Below the pieces are notes generated by a model. That model worked only from the letters and a program-made list of their open reading frames with translations. It had not been told where the DNA came from and made no database searches. From the NCBI GenBank assembly GCA_947565185.1, contig CANODU010000005.1:1-56656 (forward strand): a stretch of 56,656 bases of DNA. Reading direction: 5' to 3'. A program made the position numbers and the translations under genes. Positions 97 through 41,079 of this stretch are shown here, piece by piece (the stretch's first letter is position 1; each line of letters starts with the position of its first letter). Source of the DNA: an uncultured Eggerthellaceae bacterium. Lineage in GTDB: Bacteria; Actinomycetota; Coriobacteriia; Coriobacteriales; Eggerthellaceae.

Positions 97-4512
<4,416 letters not shown>

Positions 4513-4514
4513 CC

Positions 4515-8147
<3,633 letters not shown>

Positions 8148-37974: not shown

Positions 37975-39414
37975 CTAGCCGTCGTATAGGGGAAGTGTGA
38001 CAGTAAACGTGGTCCCCGCCTCCGGCGAAGAGGCAACCGTAATTTCGCCGTTGTGTTCGTGGGCGATCTGTTGACCGATGGCAAGCCCAAGCCCATAGCC
38101 GCCCTTGCCGCCTGTGCGCGCCTTGTCAGCACGATAGAAGCGGTCGAACAGATGCTTCAGCTGATCAGCCGGGATAGCCTCGCCCGTATTGTGGACGCGC
38201 AAGCGCGCGACCGGCCCCTTGACCATGTTCGACGCATCCACATCCAGCGCCACGTCCACCAATCCGTTGTCCTCCACGTACTTGCACGCGTTGTCGATGA
38301 GCGTGGATGCCATGCGTCCCAGCTTCTCTGCATCGCCCCTCACCATGACGCCTTCCTTGATAGAGCTCTCGAGCAAGATGCCGCGCTCGAATGCCACGGA
38401 TTCGAACTGCAGCACCTCGCCTTCCACCAGGTCGCTGAGATCCAATTGGCGCATCTGCTCAGGCGCCGGCGCACCGCCCTTCGCCGTCCGTGCGCGCGCC
38501 AGGCTCAGCATGTCGTTCACCAGCGTCTGCATGCGTTCCGCCTCGCGTTCGGAGCTCTCCACCCACTGCATCTGCTCGGCCACGGTGGAATCAGCGTGCG
38601 ACCGCAGGATGGACAGGTTCGCCAGGATCACCGTGAGCGGCGTCTTGAGCTCATGAGATGCATCAGCGGTGAACTGCTGCTGACGGTGGATGCTCTGCGC
38701 CACCGGGCGCGTGGCCCACTGCGAGAAGGCGATGTTGATCAGGAAGAACACGATGAGCGCGATCAGCCCCACGATGGCCAACAGCACAGCCAAGATCTGC
38801 CAGCCGTGCGTGCTGGCGGCGTTCGCGTAGGCCACGTACCAACCGCCATCGGTCTGCAGCTTCTCATACATCAGGTCGAACTCGGCCAAGTAGCCGCGCA
38901 CGCTCGTGCTCTCCAGCACGGAAGCGTTGGCTCGAAGCAGGATGCTCTCGGGCATGGTGGCCGTGGTGTAAGCGGGAACGGTGGTATAGACGCCATCCGA
39001 ATCCACCTTGTACACCGCAGTCAAGATGGAGGCAGACGCTTGGCCGCTGCCGATGACGGGCGCTGAGACCGTACTGGGCGCGCTCCCGGCCTTCTTGGAC
39101 GAAGCGGTGGCGGCAGCGCTGGAACTGGCAGCGCCTTCATTCGATTCGACAACGCTCTCGGTGAGCGCGATATCGGCCGTTGGCACATTCGGTCGTTCCA
39201 AGGGCTGCACGCTCTCCACCTGGCCCGCTGTGTGCGAGGCAGTGACAGATGCGCGCGTGAGCACGTACGCCAGATGCTCGTTGATGGTGTTCACGCTGTT
39301 CATATGATTCAGCGCGCAGACCGTGCCGAACGTGACCAAGAGCACGAAGAAGGCCAGCGCCATGTTGATGGAGATGAACTTGATGCGCAGGCGCTTGATG
39401 ACCGTCTCTTCCAT
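37975..39414 (-). CDS. two-component sensor histidine kinase
   Basis: This 479-aa kinase has two transmembrane helices (about 12-35 and 215-240) enclosing an extracytoplasmic sensor of about 180 residues rich in Ser/Ala/Thr. The dimerisation box has the phospho-His (DASHELKTPLTVI, near residue 252), followed by the ATPase domain with the N box (LIDNACKYVEDNG) and G box (GYGLGLAIGQQI). It starts 21 bp after the regulator stop. Its ligand cannot be read from sequence. Confidence 0.95.
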   Translation of the reverse strand: MEETVIKRLRIKFISINMALAFFVLLVTFGTVCALNHMNSVNTINEHLAYVLTRASVTASHTAGQVESVQPLERPNVPTADIALTESVVESNEGAASSSAAATASSKKAGSAPSTVSAPVIGSGQASASILTAVYKVDSDGVYTTVPAYTTATMPESILLRANASVLESTSVRGYLAEFDLMYEKLQTDGGWYVAYANAASTHGWQILAVLLAIVGLIALIVFFLINIAFSQWATRPVAQSIHRQQQFTADASHELKTPLTVILANLSILRSHADSTVAEQMQWVESSEREAERMQTLVNDMLSLARARTAKGGAPAPEQMRQLDLSDLVEGEVLQFESVAFERGILLESSIKEGVMVRGDAEKLGRMASTLIDNACKYVEDNGLVDVALDVDASNMVKGPVARLRVHNTGEAIPADQLKHLFDRFYRADKARTGGKGGYGLGLAIGQQIAHEHNGEITVASSPEAGTTFTVTLPLYDG

Positions 39415-39435: not shown

Positions 39436-40104
39436 TCAGCCCACGAAGCGGTATCCCGCGCGGCGCACTGTCTCTATCTTGCAAGCGCTGCCCAGATGTT
39501 TCAGCTTCTTGCGCAGGAAGGAGATGTAGGCCTCCACGTTGTTGTCCCCCGCGCTGGAGGTGACCCCCCACGCCTTCTGGATCAGCGTCTCTTTGGAGAC
39601 GATGGTACCCGGGGCGGACATGAGGATCTTCATGATGGAGAACTCCTTGAAGCTCAGCGTGATGGACTTGCTTTCGCACGTGAGCTCGTAGTTCTCAAGG
39701 CCCAACGTGAGATCGCCCACGGTGAGGCTTTCGAACTGCACCTCCCCTTGCCGCCGCGAAAGCGCGCGCAGATGCGCCATGAGCTCGGCTGGCGAGAAGG
39801 GCTTGGTCATGTAATCATCCGCGCCCGCATCCAAACCGGTGATCTTGTCACCCACGGCATCGCGTGCGGTCAAGAGCAGGATGGGCGTGGAGATGTTCGC
39901 ACGACGGATCTGACGGGTGGCTTCGAAGCCGTCCATCTTCGGCATCATGACGTCCATGACGATGACGTCGTAGGCTTCGACGGTAGCATAATCCAAAGCC
40001 GCCTGACCGTCGGTCACCTTATCGATCTCGTAACCGTTGTCATTCAAGATCTTCTCGAGCGCGTCTGCCAGACGCTCGTCATCTTCCGCTATGAGAACAT
40101 GCAT
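39436..40104 (-). CDS. OmpR/PhoB-type response regulator
   Basis: This 222-aa regulator has a receiver domain with phospho-acceptor D51 (VIVMDVMMPK) and conserved Lys (TKPFSPAELM), and a C-terminal winged helix (TLSFKEFSIMKILMSAPG, ...RRAGYRF). The ATG at 40104 is chosen because AGGAGG lies 6 nt upstream. The upstream region holds paired TTTCAGG direct repeats at 11-bp period facing this gene, typical of an OmpR-type operator, so autoregulation is likely. A matching repeat pair faces the other way toward a candidate RNA. No structural target gene is adjacent. Confidence 0.95.
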   Translation of the reverse strand: MHVLIAEDDERLADALEKILNDNGYEIDKVTDGQAALDYATVEAYDVIVMDVMMPKMDGFEATRQIRRANISTPILLLTARDAVGDKITGLDAGADDYMTKPFSPAELMAHLRALSRRQGEVQFESLTVGDLTLGLENYELTCESKSITLSFKEFSIMKILMSAPGTIVSKETLIQKAWGVTSSAGDNNVEAYISFLRKKLKHLGSACKIETVRRAGYRFVG

Positions 40105-40168: not shown

Positions 40169-40216
40169 CCTGAAATCAACCTGAAAACACAAACGGTGTT
40201 TCAGGAAGGTTTAAGG
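40169..40216. promoter_or_regulatory. divergent OmpR-type operator: two TTTCAGG repeat pairs
   Basis: On the minus strand TTTCAGG occurs at 40186-40180 and 40175-40169. On the plus strand TTTCAGG and TTTAAGG occur at 40199-40205 and 40210-40216. Both pairs have an 11-bp period. The plus pair overlaps the -35 region of the candidate RNA promoter (-10 TATAGT at 40226-40231). Confidence 0.65.
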
Positions 40217-40237
40217 TATCGCGCGTATAGTGCATGA

Positions 40238-40436
40238 CAGTGTTTCCCAGCACTAGCGTGACGCGAAGCCAGTCGGAACAACCTTGGAAGCGTGTCACGC
40301 AGTTTGACAACCGAATCCGGGTGAATCTTAACAACCATAGTCGGTCTGACCAGCCGGCGAAGATTCCAACCAACTCACCCAGATGAGCGCGAAGGCACCG
40401 TGGAACCTCCTCCACCTCGGTGCCTTCCTTGTTTTC
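40238..40436 (+). ncRNA. candidate structured non-coding RNA
   Basis: A gene-free stretch has several helices in series: GCGTGAC/GTCACGC (40256-40300); a long stem in which GGGTGA and AATCTT (40319-40329) pair with AAGATT and TCACCC (40360-40380) across an internal loop; an inner GTCGG/CCGGC stem; and a strong terminator. TATAGT at 40226-40231 is a plausible -10 with operator repeats upstream instead of a -35. It is divergent from the two-component genes. I do not recognise the family; it is not an obvious T-box, tmRNA, RNase P or signal recognition RNA. Confidence 0.55.
40392..40436 (+). terminator. intrinsic terminator of the candidate RNA
   Basis: AAGGCACCG pairs with CGGTGCCTT (40392-40400 and 40418-40426), followed by CCTTGTTTTC. 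The T run is on the plus strand only, which fixes the direction. Confidence 0.75.
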
Positions 40437-40538
40437 GGACCAGATCATGATGCGTACCCTCTTGCGGGTGCAGCAGAAAGGGTATTCAGCTGCTTCGCAG
40501 TGCCGATGAAAAAGATATGAAACGAAGAGCTGGGCAGC

Positions 40539-40650
40539 GGGTGCAGCAGGAAGGGCGTTCAGCCTTGGCTTCGCCCGGCGAAATCCATGATATATATCAT
40601 CATGGATTTCTTGGGCTGCAGAATCGGCTTCAACCCTCCCTGCTGCACCC
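40539..40650 (+). repeat. R8 structure, copy 2 (candidate structured RNA)
   Basis: Outer stem GGGTGCAGCAGG/CCTGCTGCACCC (40539-40550 with 40639-40650), apical stem GAAATCCATGAT/ATCATGGATTTC (40580-40610). Interior strands match copy 1 almost exactly; the outer stem shares no sequence but still pairs fully. Confidence 0.7.
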
Positions 40651-40803: not shown

Positions 40804-41079
40804 TTACACCTCGTGCATGAAGCGGAAGACGTCTTCGCGCTGAATGGTCACTTGGCAGCCCAGCTCTTCGCCCGCTTCCGCCAACCGCTCCTGCACCTCA
40901 TTGAACGGACACACCTCCGGATCCAGCGTCACCAGCATGGTCATGGAGAAGAGCTCCTCCTGGCCCAAGATGGTCTGGTTGATGTCGTCGATGTTCGCCG
41001 CGCATTCGGTGAGCACGGTAGCCACCGCGGCCACGATGCCGGTGCGGTCCTTGCCAAGCACTGAGATGACGCATTTCAT
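40804..41079 (-). CDS. ACT-domain protein
   Basis: This 91-aa protein is a single ACT-type ligand-binding domain (UPF0237-like). It opens with the strand MKCVISVLGKDRTGIVAAVATVL, typical of glycine-cleavage regulator-like ACT proteins. Such stand-alone ACT proteins bind small molecules, often amino acids, but the ligand here is unknown. AAAGGA precedes the ATG. It ends 24 bp from folE in the same orientation and probably shares its transcript. Confidence 0.9.
   Translation of the reverse strand: MKCVISVLGKDRTGIVAAVATVLTECAANIDDINQTILGQEELFSMTMLVTLDPEVCPFNEVQERLAEAGEELGCQVTIQREDVFRFMHEV

Follow-up and report, generated by a model that had tools for sequence, protein, structure and literature searches.

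A putative two-component-controlled small RNA in Eggerthellaceae that probably originated as an mRNA leader

Eggerthellaceae are a gut family that includes drug- and bile-transforming members, and our literature search found no regulator-controlled small RNA for this family. The window analyzed here (a stretch of 56,656 nt from the uncultured Eggerthellaceae genome G000) has about 200 nt without a gene, divergent from a two-component system. What does this interval produce, what controls it, and on what could it act? The original prediction proposed a candidate new structured RNA, possibly of the neighboring regulator's regulon; the lack of an Rfam match, purifying selection, covarying stems, and a promoter repeat found across the family support that reading at the level of sequence. 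The features of the locus are as follows:

37975–39414, minus strand: sensor histidine kinase gene (HisKA and HATPase_c)
39436–40104, minus strand: OmpR/PhoB-type response regulator gene (PF00072 and PF00486)
40169–40186, minus strand: TTTCAGG-N4-TTTCAGG, another direct repeat, oriented toward the regulator gene
40199–40215, plus strand: direct repeat TTTCAG-N5-TTTAAG in the RNA promoter, where the response regulator would bind
40226–40231, plus strand: −10 element TATAGT, 10 nt past the second half-site
40238–40436, plus strand: predicted structured small RNA, about 199 nt, proposed from its fold, its conservation, and its siting beside the orthologous regulator
40239–40254, plus strand: hairpin P1, AGUGUU UCCC AGCACU, with a C-rich tetraloop; proposed main pairing site
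40256–40300, plus strand: hairpin P2, 10 bp, GCGTGACGCG (40256–40265) with CGTGTCACGC (40291–40300) in the predicted minimum free energy (MFE) fold
40301–40388, plus strand: linker and hairpin domain P3, hairpin at about 40317–40383, inner GTCGG/CCGGC
40391–40436, plus strand: terminator-like hairpin P4 (GC-rich, 40391–40427) and U-rich tail CTTGTTTT

Structure and conservation of the interval

The 5′ start was set 7 nt past the −10 element and the 3′ end at the last base of the U-rich tail, both as predictions. On the plus strand, 40238–40436 folds into the four hairpins P1–P4 with an MFE of −69.8 kcal/mol (z −3.1; 0 of 200 shuffles this low); the minus strand gave a z of −2.2. In the MFE fold, the P3 helix pairs GGGTGAATCTT (40319–40329) with AAGATT (40360–40365) and TCACCC (40375–40380), and all the perfect helices named in the original prediction are present both in the sequence and in this fold. 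P4 holds CCTCCTCC at 40406–40413, partly in its loop. The strong intrinsic terminator claimed for this end held only in part: the GC-rich hairpin with a U-rich tail is there, but the U-run is interrupted, and a simple consensus terminator scan did not detect the P4 end. The U-run is weaker still in Adlercreutzia relatives. The RNA is present in a single copy in G000, and the viral contigs searched had no copy of it.

An Rfam scan of the whole window gave only three tRNAs at gathering score and none on the RNA, as expected if it lies outside the known classes. At E values up to 10, three alphaproteobacterial sRNAs and one microRNA appeared, all far under threshold. The best weak hits fell on P3–P4 and were CcsR1 (18.2 bits; gathering score 65.3), ar14 (17.9; 58.8), and CC3664 (16.6; 60), so the RNA is not a member of these families.

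Conservation was found in related genomes, where the original prediction had suggested looking: the RNA is carried with 86% identity by G001, another species of the same genus, and its 5′ domain also occurs in other genera. Between the window and G001, identical bases amounted to 17/18 in P1; 10/10 in the 5′ strand, 14/24 in the loop, and 8/11 in the 3′ strand of P2; 84/88 in the linker and P3; and 39/44 in P4, with a 3-nt gap and one compensatory change from A-U to G-C. The upstream repeats and −10 region were identical at 64/72 positions. Conservation stops at the terminator, with 35/100 identical in the 100 nt downstream. In the neighboring regulator and kinase genes, four-fold degenerate sites were identical at 54/101 and 109/194 (53–56%). 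The RNA is far more conserved than these, and it therefore evolves far slower than nearly neutral sites, which indicates that it is under strong purifying selection.

Promoter and kinship with VTC mRNA leaders

The regulator and kinase stand head-to-head with the RNA, and their domains bear out the OmpR-type regulator and kinase originally read there. The regulator matches at E ≤ 1e-60 in 92 of the 138 family genomes; its best NCBIfam model is RppA (215.6 bits, under the cut-off of 250). A −10 element just upstream had been recognized correctly, and the first reading missed the TTTCAG-N5-TTTAAG repeats ahead of it and the UCCC-loop hairpin P1; kinship with VTC mRNA leaders and a candidate target also went unseen.

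The pattern TTTMAG-N5-TTTMAG-N10-TANNNT was present in 48 of the 69 regions upstream of the orthologous regulator. The spacing to the −10 element was N10 in 48/48, in a search that allowed 7–12; a few of the genomes are near-identical. At these loci the promoter mostly drives a VTC-domain gene, and in the window's genus and Adlercreutzia it drives the predicted RNA. No sigma-70-type −35/−10 pair was found at the RNA promoter, which fits an activator-dependent promoter, since this is expected of such promoters. The RNA thus appears to be switched on by the neighboring regulator, which would act as an activator and not as a repressor. Exact repeat matches in G000 occur only at 40199–40215 and 40169–40186; the latter possibly serves autoregulation of the regulator, and repeats of its type are also present in G001, G022, G099, and others. 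A repeat search for further regulon members gave few hits.

The interval lies between the regulator gene and a minus-strand ACT-domain gene (40804–41079), past which come folE and then exoIII, both on the minus strand. G069, a genome of the Adlercreutzia group (g17), has an identical arrangement of regulator, RNA, ACT, folE, and exoIII. Since these downstream genes are encoded on the minus strand and none on the plus strand follows closely, the RNA would be free-standing. Just 3′ of it, the window (40464–40650, plus strand) has three related arms of 17–27 nt, GGGTGCAGCAGNAAGGG, two direct and one inverted, plus a 12-bp palindrome; the 17-mer is confined to this place in G000. Several dispersed intergenic palindromic elements, GTGCAAAAGGGA...TCCCTTTTGCAC, MITE- or REP-like, occur in G001 (L004 3789–4250; L113), one of them directly 3′ of the RNA.

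Named records with the 5′ motif belong to Adlercreutzia sp. ZJ304, A. murintestinalis, and uncultured Eggerthellaceae MAGs. Without mismatch, the 24-mer motif is limited to the window's genus (g1) and Adlercreutzia (g17); with three mismatches it adjoins the regulator in G082 (g23). It sits beside the orthologous regulator in all g1, g17, and g23 cases, and a stand-alone RNA or leader adjoins this regulator in six genomes of three genera. Folding z scores ranged from −3.4 to −9 across the g1 and g17 RNAs.

Most other genera have a VTC-domain gene head-to-head with the orthologous regulator. The long VTC mRNA leader of g5 (four genomes) and g23 opens with the hairpin GGTGTTYCCCRRCACC, followed by a second stem. 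The P1 loop is YCCC in 10/10 relatives, with UCCC in g1, g17, and g23 and CCCC in g5. A covariance model (R1) built only from g1, g17, and g23, with g5 left out, found the four VTC leaders of g5, each in its expected position and orientation, in a search space of 137 kb (E values of 3e-4, 0.013, 0.075, and 0.22). Among eight sequences, nine P1/P2 pairs changed on both sides, a number reached by 0/500 shuffles, and P2 had compensatory double changes in 8 of its 10 pairs; this alignment was assembled by hand with the g5 bulges removed, which favors pairing. The natural alignment without g5 had four pairs with double changes (6/500 shuffles).

The regulator tree groups g1 with g17 as sisters (support 0.98), nested in a clade with g23, g5, g6, g14, and g34 (moderate support, 0.76). 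A VTC gene adjoining the regulator is common across the tree, and loss of the VTC gene with the leader kept is therefore the simpler reading. Because the 5′ domain also opens the VTC leaders of two other genera, the RNA probably began as the leader of a VTC-domain mRNA once under this regulator and later became free-standing, an origin that is unusual and fairly well supported by these comparisons. Of the five g1/g17 genomes, four retain a VTC gene elsewhere, and its contig also carries a regulator paralog with 48–51% identity. Such a regulator near a VTC-domain gene was seen on contig C47 of G000 (4043–4702 and 7014–7706) and on contig C21 of G068 (Adlercreutzia).

C-rich stretches that are apparently unpaired lie 3′ of P2 in the g17, g5, and g23 relatives. 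VTC leaders without the P1 motif, in L076 and L077 (g22) and L069 (g60), also have long C/U-rich stretches, CTCTTCCCCTCCTCCCTTTCC and CCCTTCCTCCTTGCCCCTCC, a hint that leaders rich in C may be common to the regulon as a whole.

Candidate target, proposed action, and alternatives

In the predicted fold, the RNA exposes UCCC at P1 and CCUCC at P4. Its nt 3–26 are complementary, through 24 uninterrupted pairs (22 Watson-Crick and 2 G-U), to the 5′ UTR of a giant gene on contig C46 of G000, whose open frame exceeds 3,000 codons and encodes BspA-type leucine-rich repeats. Among the stretches tested, no other site had more than 16 uninterrupted pairs; these run lengths were used in place of simple duplex energies without accessibility, which did not discriminate. 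In G000, the 11-mer CTGGGAAACAC occurs only in the RNA and at the giant-gene site. The orthologous UTR of G001 keeps the site as 14 continuous pairs, a mismatch, and then 6, while CCUCCUCC in P4 is shortened in that species.

The best predicted target is thus the 5′ UTR of this giant BspA/LRR surface-protein mRNA. The site in G000 does not cover the proposed start codon but lies about 100 nt 5′ of it; both repression and structural opening are possible effects, and position alone does not predict which. The site was found only in the window's genus, so the giant gene alone cannot explain the 5′ conservation in Adlercreutzia. As to targets there, the four other exact CTGGGAAACAC sites are all inside coding sequence, and none is proposed. 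The giant BspA/LRR_5 frame was seen on the plus strand of L112 (5176–14540) and L113 (5630–12001), with more than 3,000 codons and truncation by the contig end; it has a conserved stretch of about 100–150 codons ahead of a second start (MNEFTE) that resembles a signal peptide.

On the minus strand of C46 in G000 and of C8 in G001, a model hit (28.4 bits) was considered as a paralogous RNA and rejected: the match is limited to the 5′ part and has neither the P2 partner strand nor a promoter. The plus strand there carries a promoter-like TTGAAA-N18-TATAGT and the giant gene, and the hit was read as the target site.

On balance we favor the RNA as a regulator-activated, trans-acting sRNA, by descent a former VTC leader, that would pair with mRNAs through C-rich loops. 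The response regulator would bind the direct repeat at 40199–40215 and activate transcription of an RNA that would end at the P4 hairpin. The pairing elements would be the P1 UCCC loop with the adjoining P2 5′ strand, and CCUCCUCC in P4. Pairing with the giant-gene mRNA may start as a loop–loop contact of UUUCCCAG with CUGGGAAA and then spread. In the window's genus and Adlercreutzia, the VTC gene would have been lost while the promoter and 5′ RNA domain were retained. Our more tentative proposal, which we put at somewhat less than even, is that one 5′ RNA domain acts in cis in some Eggerthellaceae VTC leaders and in trans elsewhere, with the 24-nt complementary site of the giant mRNA in the window's genus.

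P3, the part most conserved within the genus and absent outside it, is nearly invariant there (84/88), which pairing does not explain and which would suit an orphaned riboswitch- or sponge-like RNA that senses directly or binds a protein via P3 without pairing to mRNAs. We consider this unlikely, because no riboswitch or protein-binding family of Rfam matched even at E 10, Adlercreutzia lacks P3 yet keeps the promoter and 5′ domain, and a cis switch would need a plus-strand gene close behind. Homology with the VTC leaders, and the VTC gene found elsewhere beside a paralogous regulator, could also mean a relic leader that is still transcribed after loss of its gene and has no function in trans. 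A relic would not be expected to be conserved between two species far above four-fold sites or to be kept in two genera, and the RNA ends like a terminator and carries P3 in the window's genus; this reading too seems rather improbable.

A reading of the conserved DNA as chiefly a binding site for proteins, or as GC-rich structure arisen by chance, and not as RNA, could appeal to the promoter part, which is conserved too. The compensatory P1/P2 changes across genera, the z scores of the g1 and g17 RNAs, and the end of conservation at the terminator make it very improbable. A small protein is hardly credible: the interval has a 50-codon ATG frame (40234–40386, plus strand) and a 90-codon minus-strand frame, but in G001 the plus-strand frame meets a stop after 12 codons, and indels shift the one on the minus strand. 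No reading frame on either strand is common to G000 and G001, in agreement with the original view of the interval as noncoding.

The analysis yields a defined RNA, a likely promoter code common to 48 loci, and one candidate target. The comparison suggests a stepwise path by which an mRNA leader becomes a stand-alone RNA, traceable across living genera. On the more tentative proposal, a promoter used family-wide by this regulator would have converted the leader of an mRNA into a regulatory RNA that stands alone.

Comparison with known systems

Among the nearest comparable RNAs are the VTC-domain (PF09359) mRNA leaders of g5 and g23, which have the same promoter, the same place beside the regulator, and homologous P1 and P2. 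Those leaders run on into the VTC gene, whereas the RNA of the window ends in a hairpin with no gene behind.

The csRNAs of the CiaRH system in streptococci offer a parallel in layout. CiaR-dependent promoters have TTTAAG-N5-TTTAAG with ten bases to the −10 element (PMC3091779); the RNA promoter is alike, with C for A in the first half-site. Like the RNA, whose own drive is predicted, csRNAs depend on an OmpR-type regulator, are intergenic, and end in a terminator hairpin, and they have sequences able to pair with translation start regions (PMC3091779; PMC8186281). They are recognized as intergenic, terminator-ended RNAs of 51–202 nt, a range that includes the predicted RNA of about 199 nt with its hairpin and U-rich tail. 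Streptococcal genomes have two to six csRNAs each, most of which form one or two stem-loops, whereas the RNA has one copy and four hairpins; the phylum differs, the regulator is only generically similar, and there is no sequence match.

LhrC of Listeria is controlled by LisRK, has UCCC in its loops, that of the terminator among them, and targets the mRNA of an adhesin; C-rich motifs of LhrC and RsaE pair with Shine-Dalgarno regions (PMC4132741). UCCC in an exposed loop is common to LhrC and the predicted P1, without homology. LhrC is multicopy and blocks the lapB Shine-Dalgarno sequence, whereas the RNA is single copy and its predicted site is distant from the start codon. CcsR1, ar14, and CC3664 share with the RNA the CCUCCUCC motif in the 3′ hairpin, and one of the alphaproteobacterial sRNA hits is named after the CCUCCUCCC motif. 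As judged from these comparisons, the kind of object would be ordinary, a two-component-controlled C-rich sRNA, and the RNA family itself appears to be new.
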